NCBI GenBank assembly: GCA_003217735.2
Contig: CP031585.1
Span: forward strand, 5,039,501-5,103,500
Reading direction: 5' to 3'
Source: Marinibacterium anthonyi
GTDB lineage: Bacteria > Pseudomonadota > Alphaproteobacteria > Rhodobacterales > Rhodobacteraceae
DNA: 64,000 nt
This document shows positions 7,220 to 21,818 of the stretch, piece after piece; positions within the stretch are counted from its first letter, which is position 1, and each line of letters begins with the position of its first letter. Made by a program: the position numbers and the translations under genes. The notes under the pieces were generated by a model. The model searched no databases. It worked only from the letters and a program-made list of their open reading frames with translations, and was not told where the DNA came from.

Positions 7220-7615
7220 ATGGCCAAGAACAAGTTTCATGACGGCCCCGGTCCGTCCCAGCGACAACTCAGGGTAGGGGAATTGATCCGCCGCACGCTC
7301 TCCGAGGTGCTGGCGCGCGGTGACGTGCACGATCCCGATCTGAACCGGCTGTCGATCACCGTGGGCGAAGTCCGCATGTCCCCGGATCTCAAGATCGCGA
7401 CCGCCTATGTCCTGCCGCTTGGCGGCCAGGGCCAGGAAGACGCCGTGCCCCTGCTTGCCCGCAACAAGCATGAACTGCGGCGCACGGTCGGCAAGAAATG
7501 CGGTCTGAAATATGCACCCGACCTGCGGTTCCAGATCGACGAGACCTACGACCGCATGGATGAAACCCGCCGCATGCTCGACCAGGACGCGGTGCGCCGC
7601 GATCTCGATACGTGA
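7220..7615 (+). CDS. rbfA: 30S ribosome-binding factor A
   Basis: Binds the pre-30S subunit and helps mature the 16S rRNA 5' end. The 131-residue protein has the RbfA KH-like fold signatures [17 protein letters not shown] and [24 protein letters not shown]. The family usually begins MAKNKF, which favours ATG 7220; an in-frame ATG at 7211 would add three residues and neither has a strong SD. First gene of a rbfA-glycosidase-truB-DUF1643 run; its TGA overlaps the next start. Confidence 0.94.
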
Positions 7616-14578: not shown

Positions 14579-14627
14579 GGCGGCAATGGGGCCGCCACAT
14601 AAATCGGGAGACCCGGCAGGGGCCGGG
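14579..14627 (+). promoter_or_regulatory. Hairpins in the pnp 5' leader
   Basis: Two stems precede pnp: GGCGGC-N6-GCCGCC (14579-14596) and CCCGGC-AGGG-GCCGGG (14612-14627). In enterobacteria a leader hairpin is cut by RNase III and used for PNPase autoregulation; the same role here is inference. Confidence 0.4.
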
Positions 14628-14651
14628 AGTGCTCCCTTGAGGATACGACAC

Positions 14652-16799
14652 ATGTTTAACGTTACGACGAAATCCATGCAGTGGGGCGAGGAAACGCTTA
14701 CACTGGAAACGGGCAAGGTTGCCCGTCAGGCGGATGGCACCGTGATCGCCACGCTGGGCGAAACCAGCGTGATGGCGAACGTGACCTACGCCAGGGCACA
14801 GAAAGAGGGCCAGGATTTCTTCCCCCTCACCGTTCACTACCAGGAAAAATATTACGCGGCCGGCAAGATCCCGGGCGGCTTCTTCAAGCGCGAAGCGCGG
14901 CCGACCGAAAAGGAAACGCTGACCGCACGTCTGATCGACCGTCCGATCCGCCCGCTGTTCGTCCCCGGCTTCAAGAACGAAGTCCTGGTGATGTGCACCG
15001 TGCTGAGCCACGATCTGGTCAATGACCCCGACATCGTCGCGATGATCGCCGCCTCGGCCGCGCTGACGCTTTCGGGCGCTCCGTTCATGGGCCCGATCGC
15101 CGGCTGCCGCGTGGGCTACGAGGATGGAGAATACATCCTGAACCCGACCGTCGACGACATGCAGGGCCTGCGCCTGAACCCGGATCAGCGCCTGGACCTG
15201 GTGGTTGCCGGGACCAAGGACGCCGTGATGATGGTGGAATCGGAAGCCTACGAGCTGACCGAAGCCGAAATGCTGGGTGCCGTGACCTTTGCGCACGAGC
15301 AGATCCAGCCGGTCATCGACCTGATCATCTCGCTGGCCGAATCCGCCGCGAAAGAGCCGTTCGACTTCACGCCGCCGGATTATTCCGAGCTGTCCGCAGC
15401 CGTGAAGGCCGCCGGTGAAGACAAGATGCGCGCCGCTTTCGCGATCAAGGACAAGCAGGAACGCGTGGCCGCCGTTGGCGCCGCCCGCGAGGCCATCCTG
15501 GCCGCGCTGACCGAAGAACAGGCCGCCGACAAGAACCTTGGTTCGGCGCTGAAGAAGCTGGAAGCGTCGATCCTGCGCGGTGACGTGGTCAAGGGCGGCA
15601 CCCGGATCGACGGGCGTTCGACCACCGACGTGCGTCCGATCGAAGCCGAAACCGGCCTGCTGCCGCGGACCCACGGGTCGGCGCTGTTCACCCGGGGTGA
15701 AACCCAGGGCCTGGTCGTGACCACGCTGGGCACCGGCGATGACGAACAGTTCATCGACGCGCTGCACGGCAACTTCAAATCGAACTTCCTGCTGCATTAC
15801 AACTTCCCGCCGTATTCGGTCGGTGAAGTGGGCCGCGTCGGGTCGCCGGGTCGCCGTGAAATCGGCCACGGCAAGCTGGCATGGCGCGCGCTGCAGGCGG
15901 TTCTGCCCGCCCCGACCGACTTCCCCTACACGATCCGCATCGTGTCCGAGATCACCGAATCCAACGGCTCGTCCTCGATGGCGTCGGTCTGCGGTGGGTC
16001 GCTGTCGATGATGGACGCGGGCGTTCCGCTGAAATCGGCGGTTGCCGGTGTGGCCATGGGCCTGATCCTGGAAGACGACGGGTCCTACGCGATCCTGACC
16101 GACATCCTGGGCGACGAAGACCACCTGGGCGACATGGACTTCAAGGTCGCGGGTACGGAAAACGGCATCACGTCGCTGCAGATGGACATCAAGGTCGCGG
16201 GCATCACGCCCGAGATCATGGAGAAAGCCCTGGCGCAGGCCAAGGACGGCCGGATGCACATCCTGGGCGAGATGTCCAAGGCCCTGTCGGAAACCAAGGG
16301 TTTCAGCGTCCACGCACCGCGCATCGAAACGATGACCATCCCCACCGACAAGATCCGTGAAGTGATCGGGTCCGGCGGCAAGGTCATCCGCGAGATCGTG
16401 GAAGTGTCGGGCGCCAAGGTCGACATCAACGACGACGGCGTGATCAAGATCGCTTCGGCCGACGGTGACGCGATCCAGAAGGCCTATGACATGATCTACG
16501 CGATCGTGGCAGAGCCGGAAGAAGGCCAGGTTTACACCGGCAAGGTCGTGAAGATCGTCGATTTCGGCGCCTTCGTGAACTTCTTCGGCAAGCGCGACGG
16601 CCTGGTGCACGTGTCCCAGATCATGAACAAGCGCCTGAACCATCCTTCGGACGTTCTGAAGGAAGGCCAGGAAGTGAAGGTCAAGCTGCTGGGCTTTGAC
16701 GATCGCGGCAAGGTTCGCCTGTCGATGAAGGTCGTCGACCAGGAGACCGGCGAAGAGATCGTCGAAGAGAAGAAACAGAAGGAAGAAGCCGAGGAGTGA
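14652..16799 (+). CDS. pnp: Polyribonucleotide nucleotidyltransferase
   Basis: Phosphorolytic 3'-5' exoribonuclease of the RNA degradosome. 715 residues with all parts in order: first RNase PH core ([24 protein letters not shown]), helical linker, second RNase PH core ([30 protein letters not shown]; the catalytic FMDGPI-like region), KH domain ([20 protein letters not shown]) and S1 domain ([32 protein letters not shown]). The ATG at 14652 follows GAGG by about 9 nt. A strong terminator follows. Confidence 0.98.
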
Positions 16800-16860: not shown

Positions 16861-17460
16861 TCAGGGGCGCCCTGCCCTCTCTCGCGTGGCCTCGTCCACG
16901 AGTGTGCGGATCTGGCGCAGCAGCGGGTGGCGGGCGGTTTGCGCCGTGCCGTAGGTCAGGTTGAAGGCATAGTCGAAATCGGGGGCGTTGCGGCCCAGCA
17001 CGTGCTGCAGCATGGTTTCCAGCTTGTCGAAGCCCTTGGCCATGACCGCCTCGGGCGTCCGGGCGTCCGCGTATTCGTCCCAAAGCGCCATCATCGACGC
17101 CTGCATGTCGGGCGGCAGCGGGTCGCACAGGCGCTGCATGTCGCGCCGTTCGCGGGCCTGGCGGTTGTCGTCGGGGGTCTGTCGGGTGGCCGGAACGTCG
17201 CCCGAGATCGCCTCGCCCAGGTCGTGGACCAGGCACAGCTTGAGCAGCCGCAGCATGTCGATGCCGTCCAGGTCGTCTTCGAACAGGCAGGCCATCAGGC
17301 ACAGGCGCCAGCTGTGTTCGGCCGTGCTTTCCGCGCGTCCCTGCGAGGTCGCGCCGCTGCGCAGGGTGTCCTTGAGGCGTTCGGCGTCCTGCAGGAAGGC
17401 GAGGATCGCGCGCAGGCGCGCGTCGGATGGGGGTGCGGATGGAGTCTCGGATCGGGTCAT
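16861..17460 (-). CDS. HD-domain hydrolase (YfbR-like)
   Basis: 199 residues. Metal-binding HD-fold pattern: H49 in STAEHSW, H79-D80 in LVHDLGEAISGDVPAT and a distal Asp in the following helices. HD proteins of this size and with the EHSWR...HDLGE order are 5'-nucleotidase or (d)NMP phosphohydrolases of the YfbR type. The frame extends far upstream through low-complexity repeats, but the family start is MTRSETPS at 17460. Convergent with pnp. Confidence 0.85.
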   Translation of the reverse strand: MTRSETPSAPPSDARLRAILAFLQDAERLKDTLRSGATSQGRAESTAEHSWRLCLMACLFEDDLDGIDMLRLLKLCLVHDLGEAISGDVPATRQTPDDNRQARERRDMQRLCDPLPPDMQASMMALWDEYADARTPEAVMAKGFDKLETMLQHVLGRNAPDFDYAFNLTYGTAQTARHPLLRQIRTLVDEATRERAGRP

Positions 17461-17828
17461 GGGTCTATTGGTAGGACCGGCCGCGCGGCGCTGCAACGCG
17501 GGGCATGTTTTATGCCCGATCCGGCCCGTTTCGGGGCATGGGCTTGACGGATGGGCCCGGCGCCGGTTCGGTGCTGTTCCAGGCGGGTGTTGTCGGGCCG
17601 GACGTGGTGAGGGATCTGGTGAGGGACATGATGGCGGACACGGTGGCGGACACGGGCTGGATCGCGACACTGCGTTCGAACGTGATCGCGCCGGTTCCAC
17701 GTGGTCGATCCGGCGGGCAAGCTGGTGAATGTCCGGGCACACGACGGGGCACACGAGGGGGCACTCGGGGAGGCACACGAGGGGCCGCACGGGTGATTTA
17801 CCCGGGGATTGCGGTGTAAGGTCCGGAC
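17461..17828. other. Repeat-rich spacer without a credible gene
   Basis: 368 bp between the HD and ATPase genes. It holds a small hairpin (GGGCAT / ATGCCC, 17501-17517), two copies of a TGGTGAGGGA unit and two copies of TGGCGGACACGG near 17605-17655, and the GGCACACGA array at 17734-17791. Open frames through it on both strands are low-complexity products of the repeats. Confidence 0.6.
17734..17791. repeat. 11-13 bp tandem array upstream of the ATPase gene
   Basis: Five successive imperfect units around GGGGCACACGA: 17734-17744, 17745-17756, 17757-17767, 17768-17780 and 17781-17791. The array ends 38 bp before the ATPase start codon. Confidence 0.75.
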
Positions 17829-19052
17829 ATGCGGCGTTTGCGTAGAAGAAACCCTTTCGATCCCGCCCATGCGGCCCGGCCCGATATCTTTCGCGGCCGC
17901 GAGGACGAGATCGGGGACGTGGCCGAAGCGCTGAGCGCGGCCAGCTACGGCGATCCGGTCGAACATATCCTGGTGACCGGCGAACGCGGGATCGGAAAGA
18001 CCTCGCTTCTGGAGATCTGCGCGCGGATCGCGCAGGACGACATGCCGGGCACGCGGACCGGCTTCGATTTCCTGGTGGTGTCGATTTCGCTGACCGGCGT
18101 GACCGACATGTTCCAGATCACCCAGCGCGTCGCCAGCGCCATCCGGGACGAGCTGGACCGCCGCAAGGTGGCCAACCCGGGCCTGCGGTCGGTGGTCCAG
18201 TTCCTGCTGAACTGGGAGATCCTTGGCGTGCATTATCACCGGCCCGACAGCGCGGTCAGCGACGACCAGGCGATGGGCCTGCTGGTCGAGCAATGCGTGC
18301 GGATCGAACGGACGGGGCATTTCCAGGGGATCCTTGTCATCATGGACGAGGCCGACGATCCGCCGGCCTCGGCGCGGCTGGCGACCTGGTGCAAGACCTT
18401 CACCGAACGCTTTGGCCAGGCCGAAGGCGCACGGCTGGTGCTGTGCCTGGCCGGCCAGGTCGAGCTGACGGCGAAGCTGCGCCAGGATCACCAATCGGCG
18501 CTGCGGCTGTTTCGGGAATGCACCCTGCCGGTGCTGTCGCGGGCGGAATGCGAACAGATCCTGCGCGCCGGGATCGCGCTGTCGAACGGGTCGTCGGATG
18601 AAAAGACCGAATTGCGCGACGACGCGGTGGCGCTGCTGACCGACCTGGCCGAAGGCTATCCCTATTTCCTGCAGGTCTATGCCCGGGCGGCGTTCAAGGC
18701 CGATCGGGACAACGTGCTGGACGGGGCCGACGTGCAGGCGGCGCAGGTCGGCGCGACCGAGGAGATCGGCCAGAAGTTCTTTCGCGGGATCTACGACGCG
18801 GTGGCCACGTCCGACAATTACCGCGCGGTGCTGCGCGCCATGGCACCCTTTGGCAACCGGTGGGTCGGCCGGCAGGAGATCCTGAAGGCGGCCGAGGGCG
18901 TGAGCGAGGCCAACGTGAACAACGCCCTGCGCAAGCTGCGCGACGGGGCCGTGGTGGAACTGCACCCCGACCGGCCCGGCACCTACCGGCTGCAGACCAA
19001 TGCCTTTGCCGCCTGGCTGTCGACCCGTGACGCCGGGTCTTCGACGGCCTGA
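17829..19052 (+). CDS. Orc1/Cdc6- or STAND-like P-loop ATPase with C-terminal winged helix
   Basis: 407 residues. N-terminal FRGREDEIGDVAEAL, Walker A GERGIGKTS (51-59), Walker B ILVIMDEAD (168-176) and an RxxE sensor-like region, followed by a helical domain with GYPYFLQVYA, typical of the ATPase domains shared by archaeal Orc1/Cdc6-type and STAND proteins. The last 90 residues (NRWVGRQEIL...SEANVNNALRKLRDGAVVELHPDRPGTYRLQ) form a winged-helix DNA-binding domain. AAGG lies 7 nt before the ATG. Stands alone as a transcription unit with tandem repeats on both sides, so the ATPase may act on that DNA. The role is not known. Confidence 0.85.
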   Translation: MRRLRRRNPFDPAHAARPDIFRGREDEIGDVAEALSAASYGDPVEHILVTGERGIGKTSLLEICARIAQDDMPGTRTGFDFLVVSISLTGVTDMFQITQRVASAIRDELDRRKVANPGLRSVVQFLLNWEILGVHYHRPDSAVSDDQAMGLLVEQCVRIERTGHFQGILVIMDEADDPPASARLATWCKTFTERFGQAEGARLVLCLAGQVELTAKLRQDHQSALRLFRECTLPVLSRAECEQILRAGIALSNGSSDEKTELRDDAVALLTDLAEGYPYFLQVYARAAFKADRDNVLDGADVQAAQVGATEEIGQKFFRGIYDAVATSDNYRAVLRAMAPFGNRWVGRQEILKAAEGVSEANVNNALRKLRDGAVVELHPDRPGTYRLQTNAFAAWLSTRDAGSSTA

Positions 19053-19072
19053 CCGGGCGGGCCACGTCTGGC

Positions 19073-19132
19073 CATTACGGTTCATTACCTGTCATTACGC
19101 ATCATTGCACGGCATTGCGCGGCATTGCGGCC
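19073..19132. repeat. Six 10-bp CATTRC repeats
   Basis: Six units of exactly 10 bp, each beginning CATTAC or CATTGC: 19073, 19083, 19093, 19103, 19113 and 19123. The first three read CATTAC, the last three CATTGC; the other four positions vary. The array starts 21 bp after the ATPase stop. Confidence 0.9.
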
Positions 19133-19175
19133 CGGTCCCAACCGCCTGGCCGGCGGCAAGTCGGGACGGGGAGCC

Positions 19176-19235
19176 CATTAGCGGTCATTACCGGTCATTA
19201 CCGGCCGCTACGGATCATCAAGGCCCATGTCCCGT
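19176..19235. repeat. Second 10-bp phased array
   Basis: Units CATTAGCGGT, CATTACCGGT, CATTACCGGC at 19176, 19186 and 19196, then decayed ten-mers beginning CGCTAC, CATCAA and CATGTC to 19235. Same period and same core as the array at 19073, 43 bp further on. Confidence 0.75.
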
Positions 19236-19382
19236 CACGGCCCCTGCCCTTGATCCATCGGCATGAACCGGCGCGCGGCCAGGCCCCTGGATGGCAATCC
19301 GCAATCCACAGCATACATACCACCCCGAGACGCGCCAGATCCGGCGCCAAGGTTGCACAAGACTGGAACGGAGAGTTTTCCC

Positions 19383-20150
19383 ATGGATTTCAAGGACAAG
19401 GTCGTCCTGATCACCGGCGCTGCCGGAGGCATCGGCATCGCCACGGCACGCAAGTTCGCCGCCGCAGGGGCAAGGCTGGCTTTGGTGGACCTGAAGCTGG
19501 ACGCCCTGGAAGTCGCCGCCGCCGGGCTGGAAAGCGCGCTTTTGCTGTCGGCCAACGTGGCCGACGAGGCGGATGTGAAGACCTACGTCGACAAGACCGT
19601 CGAAACCTTCGGGCGGATCGACGTCTTCATCAACAACGCCGGCATCAACGGCGACTTCAAGCAGATCACCGACCAGAGCGCCGAGAACTACCGCAAGGTG
19701 CTGGACGTCAACGTGATCGGCGTGGCGATGGGGCTGAAACACGTGGTCGCCCGGATGAAGGCGCAGGGCGACGGCGGGGCGATCGTCAACATGGCGTCCA
19801 ACGGCGGCTTGCTGGGCGCACCGGGGATGAGCGCCTACGTGGCGTCCAAACACGCGGTGATCGGGATCAACAAGTCGGTGGCCCTGGAAGTGGCCAAGGA
19901 CGGGATCCGGGTGAACGCGGTCTGCCCGTCGGGCGTGGATACGCAGATGATGAAATCGATCGAAACCAACGCCATGCCGGGCCAGGAGGACGACGCGCGC
20001 AAGTCGTTCGAAGCCGCCGTGCCGCTGGGCCGGTACGCCGAACCCGAGGAAATCGCCGACCTGATGATGTTCCTGGCGTCCGACAAGGCCAGCTTCATCA
20101 CCGGGGCCTATTACCGGATCGACGGGGGCGGCGGCGCCGTATCCGTCTGA
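19383..20150 (+). CDS. SDR-family NAD(P)-dependent oxidoreductase
   Basis: 255 residues of classical short-chain dehydrogenase. Cofactor motif TGAAGGIG near residue 12, NNAG (INNAGIN), active-site Ser in NMASNGG and the YxxxK pair in SAYVASKHAV, then the PSGVDTQMM loop and the C-terminal YYRIDGGGGA segment. The acidic residue after the second strand (LVDLKLD) suggests NAD(H) preference. ATG 19383 matches the family start. The substrate is not predictable; its only neighbour on the strand is the ATPase gene. Confidence 0.9.
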   Translation: MDFKDKVVLITGAAGGIGIATARKFAAAGARLALVDLKLDALEVAAAGLESALLLSANVADEADVKTYVDKTVETFGRIDVFINNAGINGDFKQITDQSAENYRKVLDVNVIGVAMGLKHVVARMKAQGDGGAIVNMASNGGLLGAPGMSAYVASKHAVIGINKSVALEVAKDGIRVNAVCPSGVDTQMMKSIETNAMPGQEDDARKSFEAAVPLGRYAEPEEIADLMMFLASDKASFITGAYYRIDGGGGAVSV

Positions 20151-20198
20151 TCGAACCCGTCGAGGGGAAGAGCGCCCCGCGCAGGGGGCGCTCTGGTC

Positions 20199-21596
20199 CT
20201 ATTCGGCCATGATGGAGGCCGGCGGCGTGCCGGTGTCCAGCCAGCTTTCCATCGCCGCCGTGGGATCCAGCGCGGCGGCGTTGATGCCGCCCGGTCCCGG
20301 CAGGATGCCGCAATGATCCAGCCCCGGGACCATGAACAGCGCGACATTTTCCTTCAGCGCATCCGCGCCGCCCGCAATCGCCGCGGCCTTTTCGTACCAG
20401 TCGACGGTCTTGTAGGGGGTGACGATGGAATCCGCCCAGCCATGGTAGACGATCATCTTGCCGCCCGCCGCGCGGAAGGCCGATATGTCGGGATTGTCGC
20501 CGTTGTAGACCGCCGATGCCACGCTCATCCGTGCCGGGTCGGTTTCAAAGTCGAAATCCAGCGGCGACCAGGAAGCGCCGGGATCCGGGTCGAACGCCAT
20601 GTACTGGCCAAAGCCCAGCCCGAACAGCGGCACCAGCGGAACGCTGCCCTTGCCGTCGCCCGTCAGCCACAGGAACCAGAACGGTTCCGACCCTTCGGGG
20701 ATGCCGCCGGGGTACAGCTGTTCTCCGGCCGCGTTGCGGGCGCCTTCGCGCCACTTGCCCAACGTGTCCAGCTGCTGGTTGGTCAGGCCCAGGCCGGAGT
20801 AATCCACCTTGCACTGGCGCGGATCGGCGATCAGCCCGTCTTCGGTCCCGTCGGTGGCGTCGCACTGGGCGATCACGGCGTCGCCGATGACCTTGGCGGC
20901 GTCGGCGTCGATGATCCGGCTGCCGTCCTCGGCGGTGTTGGCCTGCACCACCCAGGCGATCGAGGTCGCCACCAGCCCCGGGTAATCCATTGCCGGGGCG
21001 CCGGAAATGATGCCGTCGAACATCTCGGGGAAGCGCACGGCGGCCACGTGGGCCATGCGGCCCCCGGTGGAACACCCCTGAAAGATCGCCTGGTCCGAGG
21101 CGTTGCCGTAGAAGGTTTCGATCATCAGGTTGGCGACGCGGTTGGTTTCCGAAATCGACCGGTAGCCCCAGTCGCGTTCCGCATGCGGGTTGTTGTAGGC
21201 CCAACCGCCATCGACCACCGACAGCGCATGGTGCCCGCTGTCGGACGTCGCGGTGGCGTAACCCCGCTGCAGCCCCGGCGCCATCGCGTTGACCCACCCG
21301 CCCGAGGCATCCGCCCGGCCAAGGATCCCGCAGAAACCGCCACAGCCGGCCTGGTAGAACTTGCCGTTCCAGCCATCCATCGGCAGGCGCACCTCGATCG
21401 AGATGGCGGGCAGCGCGGTGGCGCGGACCTCGCAATAGGCGGGCGCCGGATCGGCGGCGGGCATCACCCGGGCCGAGGTGACGTAGCCGCCCGGAAATAC
21501 CGTGTTGCGCAGCGCGGTGCAGTCGGCGTCGCCCTGCTGGGCCAGCGCCGGCAGGCCCGGCGCAAGCAATACGGCGGCCGCTAGAAGTCGTTTCAT
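20199..21596 (-). CDS. Tannase/feruloyl-esterase-family hydrolase (exported)
   Basis: 465 residues with a Sec signal peptide (LLAAAVLLAPGLPALAQ). The family CS-D-HC signature is present: nucleophile in FQGCSTGGR, an acid in the GWADSIV region and GLDHCG near the end, where the two cysteines form the disulfide that joins Ser and His loops. Conserved GCGGFCG and GYATATSDSGHH also fit. It would cleave phenolic esters such as feruloyl or galloyl esters in the periplasm. Divergent from the glycosyltransferase; no regulator adjacent. Confidence 0.9.
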   Translation of the reverse strand: MKRLLAAAVLLAPGLPALAQQGDADCTALRNTVFPGGYVTSARVMPAADPAPAYCEVRATALPAISIEVRLPMDGWNGKFYQAGCGGFCGILGRADASGGWVNAMAPGLQRGYATATSDSGHHALSVVDGGWAYNNPHAERDWGYRSISETNRVANLMIETFYGNASDQAIFQGCSTGGRMAHVAAVRFPEMFDGIISGAPAMDYPGLVATSIAWVVQANTAEDGSRIIDADAAKVIGDAVIAQCDATDGTEDGLIADPRQCKVDYSGLGLTNQQLDTLGKWREGARNAAGEQLYPGGIPEGSEPFWFLWLTGDGKGSVPLVPLFGLGFGQYMAFDPDPGASWSPLDFDFETDPARMSVASAVYNGDNPDISAFRAAGGKMIVYHGWADSIVTPYKTVDWYEKAAAIAGGADALKENVALFMVPGLDHCGILPGPGGINAAALDPTAAMESWLDTGTPPASIMAE

Positions 21597-21818
21597 GACA
21601 GGTCTCCTCCCACGTTTCCTCGTCGTGGAATTTTATTTCGCGCGCGGCCCGATCAGGCAAGTGCGGATATCCCCGGCTTGACGCATGGTCGCCTTTCAAA
21701 GCGTCTTTCGCGGGGGATTTCCGTCCGCCTCGGCGCTTCTGCTACAGTGCGGATAATTCGCGTCGAAGGGGGGTTGTCCTTCGTTGCGAAGGCGCGGGGC
21801 ATCGGCAAAGGTGCGCTC

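Follow-up and report, generated by a model that had tools for sequence, protein, structure and literature searches.

Directly behind a gene for an ORC/STAND-type AAA ATPase lies an array of DNA units with a period of exactly 10 bp, and this pairing of gene and array is real and conserved. The period, place, phase and register of the units are kept in seven loci, which are patchily distributed and occur in varied genomic settings. The locus described here belongs to the window, which is the whole stretch of 64,000 nucleotides that was analysed (G000:C1:5039501-5103500 of a 6.8-Mb genome). A mechanism that joins gene and array is plausible. We put at about even the chances that the protein is a mobile accessory ATPase, similar to both ORC/Cdc6 and STAND proteins, which docks via its winged helix on its own 3' 10-bp array for anchoring or self-control. 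An earlier note on this DNA had proposed that the gene forms a self-contained DNA-binding locus with short-period arrays on both of its sides; this first interpretation is partly supported.

The ATPase and its flanking arrays in the window

The ATPase gene (17829..19052, forward strand) encodes a protein of 407 aa and was assigned from its open reading frame, Pfam, an AlphaFold2 model and PDB matches. The protein scores above the cut-off of the Pfam model AAA_16 (PF13191; 45 bits, cut-off 32.6), under that of the nSTAND1 model (18.8 bits, cut-off 27.1) and well under that of the Orc1/Cdc6 model TIGR02928 (29 bits, cut-off 181.3). The AlphaFold2 model, built from six sequences (mean pLDDT 83.6), predicts an ORC-like fold. 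At its C-terminal end it has what looks like a winged helix (helices at residues 329-341, 348-354 and 360-372), so that the predicted structure has the ORC arrangement of an AAA module and a winged helix; residues 360-372 (18906..18944, forward strand) are the predicted recognition helix according to the secondary structure of the model. The closest PDB folds found by Foldseek are archaeal Cdc6/Orc1 proteins (1fnn, 2v1u, 2qby and 1w5t; best E 5e-11), with TM scores, normalised by query length, of at most 0.60. Model and matches agree with the earlier description of the protein as an Orc1/STAND-like ATPase with a C-terminal winged helix. The EGYP motif, presumably linked to STAND proteins, does not vary among the ATPases compared, and phrog_6841 (function unknown) matches all three members scanned.

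The 3' array has two blocks, both of which had been seen earlier and are present. The first (19073..19132, forward strand), separated from the stop codon by 20 bases and conserved in place, consists of six units of exactly 10 bp, CATTACNNNN then CATTGCNNNN, with CATTAC three times and then CATTGC three times at 19073, 19083 and so on to 19123. The second (19176..19211, forward strand) has the 10-bp units CATTAGCGGT, CATTACCGGT and CATTACCGGC and then decays. None of 1000 shuffles matched the lag-10 score of the stretch downstream of the window gene, and a threefold CATTRC(N4) pattern with at most one mismatch has five matches in the 6.8-Mb genome, all of them at this locus.

On the 5' side, the GGGCACACGAGG array (17735..17791, forward strand) is also present. 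Its period had been given as 11-13 bp; it is a constant 12 bp without indels, and the last base of the array lies 37 bp before the ATG. A second 12-bp noncoding array, GGACACGGTGGC-like, is found at 17600..17655 on the same strand. The 12-bp arrays were considered as part of the conserved unit and rejected. Given that the genome is rich in short-period arrays, and that none of the six other array-bearing ATPase loci has an upstream array within 200 bp, the 5' array is probably outside the gene-array unit. In sampled noncoding DNA, arrays with lags of 9-12 number 22 in 98 kb of G000 (four of them at the window locus), as compared with 4 in 77 kb of G344 and 3 in 89 kb of the genus mate G001. 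The abundance is thus specific to G000 relative to its genus mate. The many 9-12-bp tandem arrays in the noncoding DNA of G000 (window 17600-17791 and loci L021-L038) have unrelated units.

A genome full of unrelated short-period noncoding arrays is what would be expected if the 3' array, too, were a neutral product of slippage and functionless. We consider this highly improbable, because seven loci share the period and the place of the array, the consensus units of six loci share a register, and the sampled noncoding DNA of G344 and G001, genomes of the same family, contains one and zero lag-10 arrays, respectively.

Array-bearing relatives and the register of their units

The ATPase gene is patchily distributed and mobile. 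A close homologue is missing from both of the other genus genomes searched. In larger samples, in which up to four candidates per genome were scored and members may thus be missed, a close homologue was found in at least one of 393 family genomes besides its own (G344, 36%; E<=1e-10), with matches at 24-29% identity in at least eight further genomes, and the ATPase was found in at least one of 389 genomes of the order (G640, E<=1e-30) and at least one of 384 of the class (G871, E<=1e-40). It is absent from four genus mates of G640. A scan of genome contigs with a two-sequence alignment returned 77 relatives from many phyla, and searches of plasmids and of phages gave distant relatives or none. 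Viral contigs yielded six relatives, of which one (L146) has the array and five have no lag-10 array; repeat searches added none.

In a first test, the stretch downstream of each gene was compared with 200 shuffles at lags of 7-15, and lag 10 at p<=0.02 was scored as an array. This covered 78 loci (77 and the window), of which 73 have at least 150 bp of downstream DNA and five were too short. A lag-10 array is present in seven: the window, L050, L051 (Fertoeibacter niger, whose ATPase agrees with that of G344), L073, L074 (Brevundimonas alba), L096 (Camelimonas lactis) and L065 (Verrucomicrobiales). All belong to the 31 closer loci, versus none of the 42 more distant ones; in four closer loci (L055, L060, L063 and L089) another lag was best at p<=0.02. 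Since no such array was found at p<=0.02 in 66 of the 73 testable loci, the window being one of the 73, the AAA ATPase family as a whole can do without it. Homologues lacking the arrays, which the earlier note held to speak against its reading, are therefore the majority, but six relatives do bear one. The array of L065 (p 0.005) may be a case of its own or, with 25 other closer loci, a chance result. L065 was left out of the final seven, to which L146 was added.

The test was repeated with lags of 8-14 and 1000 shuffles on the window, L050, L051, L073, L074, L096 and L146. Lag 10 was the best downstream lag in all seven (p<=0.002 each), and an upstream array within 200 bp exists in the window alone. 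Thus, the expectation that the arrays travel with the gene and keep their 10-bp phase holds for the 3' array in six other loci and fails for the 5' array. The first unit begins 7-76 bp past the stop codon. The six loci other than the window were picked by protein similarity alone, their ATPases being 34-37% identical to that of the window. As a control, a lag-10 array starting within 130 bp follows three of 874 gene 3' ends, including that of the window ATPase, in 464 kb of G000, 400 kb of G344 and 400 kb of G001, where genes were called by a simple script. At that score, the array behind the ATPase is the sole one of lag 10 in the DNA examined of L040 (20 kb), L050, L073, L132, L074 and L096.

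The grouping of the seven loci is post hoc, because L076, with the same 34% identity to the window as L146, has no lag-10 array and because the array-bearing rows of the tree are not one clade. The window is a long branch beside L050 and L051, which are close to each other and not independent. L101 (Micavibrio) has no array, and G640, whose ATPase copy is broken after 131 aa near a contig edge, was left out of the count. A threefold CA[G/T]TA[C/G](N4) pattern occurs in five of 385 genomes, at ATPase loci in two and elsewhere in three. The idea of the array class as a general alphaproteobacterial feature was rejected, as the reversed-pattern control occurs in 14 of the 385 genomes, in some many times. 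Given this lack of enrichment over the control, the bare pattern means little without its place.

In all seven loci the units lie on the gene strand past the stop codon, where the array might act in RNA, as a terminator, stability element or decoy in the 3' untranslated region. The L074 stretch indeed folds strongly (z -3.65), but six other folded stretches, two of them from the window and none from L146, have z values of -0.53 to -1.32, and flanking inverted repeats reach p<0.05 in L074 and L096 only, of six loci tested. Moreover, a constant 10-bp step would be a signature of the DNA helix rather than of RNA. An action in RNA is, thus, quite improbable. Inverted repeats forming a general hairpin around the array were rejected on the same counts. 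At L073, L074 and L096, three of the seven loci, the next gene is convergent, so the array there is not a promoter of the neighbour.

The consensus units are CGTCATTACG in the window, CTTCAGTAGC in L051, TTTCAGTACC in L073, GTCCATTAGG in L074, CTACAGACGG in L096 and ACTTACTACC in L146. The units of these six loci differ and align in one register, roughly TCA[G/T]TA[C/G], with an alignment score reached by one of 200 letter shuffles. Base 3 of the unit tracks residue 364 of the ATPase (codon 18918-18920 of the window, forward strand), which lies within the predicted recognition helix: Asp goes with G, and Asn or Thr with T or C. Accordingly, L050, L051, L073 and L096 combine CAG units with Asp364, and the window, L074 and L146 combine CAT or CAY units with Asn or Thr at the position of window residue 364. 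Three of 398 gap-free columns (183, 198 and 364) are fixed in the CAG group and absent from the other group, and 364 is the only one of them within the recognition helix. A column in residues 360-372 that separates the two groups exists for the real split alone among the 35 possible 4/3 splits. Although L073 and L074 sit side by side in the tree (support 93/88), they differ in both unit and residue 364. This covariation, drawn from seven proteins of which two are close to each other, and with a column chosen post hoc, would favour direct binding by the winged helix.

Genomic settings of the gene and its array

The settings of the ATPase gene comprise the 3' side of pnp at four sites (one with a broken copy), a tRNA-Gly island and two phage settings. 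In the window, pnp (polynucleotide phosphorylase by Pfam; 14586..16799, forward strand) is followed by a gene for an HD-domain protein (Pfam HD_3; 16861..17460, reverse strand), and the ATPase starts 1029 nt past the pnp stop. The corresponding distance is 83 nt in L051, 85 nt in L050 and 87 nt for the broken copy of G640. Two genus mates have different genes 3' of pnp, and then the same glycosyltransferase gene. The interval between pnp and the glycosyltransferase gene (window 16867-21677) holds different genes in each of three genus genomes, and appears as a variable spot.

In L050, a 224-bp stretch of the pnp 3' end occurs on either side of the ATPase and array; the two copies are 92% identical, and the second (7312-7535) is still an open frame and directly adjoins the array. 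In L074, the tRNA-Gly 3' end is present as perfect 46-bp repeats at a distance of 2873 bp. They enclose the ATPase, the array and two further genes; the interval encodes an HNH protein and an HTH_3 regulator. The remaining five of the seven loci showed no significant flanking direct repeat. The ATPase of L096 lies behind prophage head and tail genes. That of L146 is part of a phage contig and has repressor-like and exonuclease-like genes nearby, and that of L073 is flanked by a DUF484 gene and a gene for a rhodanese-domain protein.

These settings bear on the chief rival explanation, in which the array would consist of arm-type sites of a tyrosine recombinase, as part of an attachment site, and the ATPase would be carried by small elements without an integrase of their own, which would be moved in trans into gene 3' ends (pnp, tRNA-Gly). 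The array of L050 lies at the duplication junction, the tRNA-Gly repeats of L074 surround both ATPase and array, similar 10-bp arrays are found near integrase-like genes (4 bp behind the gene in L201, at a distance of 0.9 kb in L214), and the attP of a known ICE contains five arm motifs of 10 letters, according to an excerpt of PMC11963761. However, a motif search of ORFs of at least 100 aa found no integrase-like ORF in the DNA examined around six of the seven loci; the one near DUF484 at L073 (L132) reads by eye as XerC. L218, which covers the L146 ATPase with 10 kb of upstream and 9.7 kb of downstream DNA, has none, and integrase-like ORFs are present in only two of 23 viral-contig stretches with such arrays. 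In addition, the array of L074 is more than 1.3 kb from either repeat, five loci have no significant flanking repeat, and the covariation with the recognition helix of the ATPase is left unexplained. We therefore regard arm-type sites as unlikely, though the most serious competitor. If they were correct, a set of very small integrase-less elements would be exposed, some of them at pnp.

Further sequence features were observed near an integrase-like gene and at relatives of the ATPase. At L201 (10890-12020), the TCATTAG-type 10-bp array that follows the integrase-like gene is, by eye, beside a flavodoxin-like gene, and may itself be an arm site. An attC-like sequence was seen by eye 3' of the ATPase gene in L063, L067, L068, L070, L072 and L075, which is suggestive of integron cassettes that may have attC in the place of the array. 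A simple attC motif test matched ten of 37 loci, against about 8% of letter shuffles; three of the six loci picked by eye are among the ten, and none of the seven array loci is. In the distant relatives L009, L010 and L011, short direct or inverted repeats (TTTATC-like, ATAGTTATA-like) lie just upstream of the ATPase gene, and are perhaps operators.

Similar arrays without a nearby ATPase relative exist in G973, G955 and G922, as might be expected if the array were a site for some other protein, such as a host or phage regulator or a nucleoid protein, and were kept near the ATPase for its regulation. Given that the array follows the ATPase into settings as unrelated as pnp, a tRNA island and prophages, and that it covaries with the recognition helix of this very protein, we give such a role little credence. 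By eye, the array of G973 is upstream of a Fic-like gene, that of G955 upstream of an HTH gene, and that of G922 at the end of a transporter gene. In L145 (5011-5084), a Fic-like gene is preceded by ATTACGACAC in seven 10-bp units. By eye, the product of this gene has an apparent N-terminal winged helix; this is perhaps another winged-helix protein with a 10-bp array.

A proposed docking mechanism and its known counterparts

In the docking mechanism that we favour, the array of 10-bp sites would travel directly behind the ATPase gene and offer its sites to the C-terminal winged helix, with one protomer per helical turn and all protomers on one face of the DNA. The array might then seed an ordered, ATP-dependent oligomer. 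The most likely use of such an assembly would be the anchoring and self-control of the ATPase, i.e., holding the protein or limiting its expression. Against this reading, a regulatory site behind its own gene is unusual, and within 200 bp upstream of the ATPase the units have no forward match and one reversed match (L074). Since the ATPase is carried by prophages and islands, it is possibly a defence or superinfection gene. This role is a guess from the carriers only, because a PADLOC-DB 2.0.0 scan of four ATPases gave no clear match to a defence model and partial matches throughout (best E 0.0087 for the window, 0.00066 for L051, 0.028 for L074 and 0.0013 for L065).

It is tempting to extend docking to a new self-contained mobile module, in which an ORC/STAND-like ATPase and a helically phased 3' landing array, co-evolving with the recognition helix, repeatedly insert at gene 3' ends (pnp, tRNA) or in prophages, and in which a filament seeded by the array controls or arms defence or superinfection functions. 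This fuller reading is tentative and somewhat doubtful. No description of an ATPase with such an array was found in the open-licence literature, among the matches listed and as far as their titles and the openings of their abstracts indicate. If the ATPase binds its own array, then site spacing, winged-helix specificity and AAA assembly could be changed separately in a compact natural system, for which several natural variants would already be paired with different units. Initiator-like ATPases would then serve as mobile accessory genes in bacteria.

With archaeal Orc1/Cdc6 proteins the window ATPase shares, in its predicted structure, an AAA module followed by a winged helix; that its nearest known structures belong to DNA-binding proteins speaks for docking. 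An excerpt of PMC5333045 describes repeated binding boxes at archaeal origins and one cdc6 gene adjacent to its origin. In contrast to the archaeal proteins, the window ATPase is far under the TIGR02928 cut-off, bacterial and mobile, and the short units of its locus follow the gene directly, with a spacing of one turn. It resembles STAND and AAA_16 proteins in exceeding the AAA_16 cut-off, in its phrog_6841 match and in having distant plasmid relatives named 'ATP-binding protein'. Unlike STAND proteins, it has no large sensor domain within its 407 aa, and the descriptions of this group that were found contain no cognate 3' array.

Arm-type sites of attP are similar in being short direct repeats near recombination junctions (L050; L201), but the array described here follows an ATPase gene, and the DNA examined at six of the seven loci revealed no integrase-like ORF. 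RdfS and BldC are winged-helix proteins that, to our knowledge, have no ATPase module. The excerpt of PMC11963761 describes DNA binding by both at roughly one molecule to every 10 bp or every turn, with no apparent consensus motif in the case of RdfS. This spacing, of about one winged helix for every 10 bp or turn of DNA, is the same as that proposed here for the ATPase on the window array.
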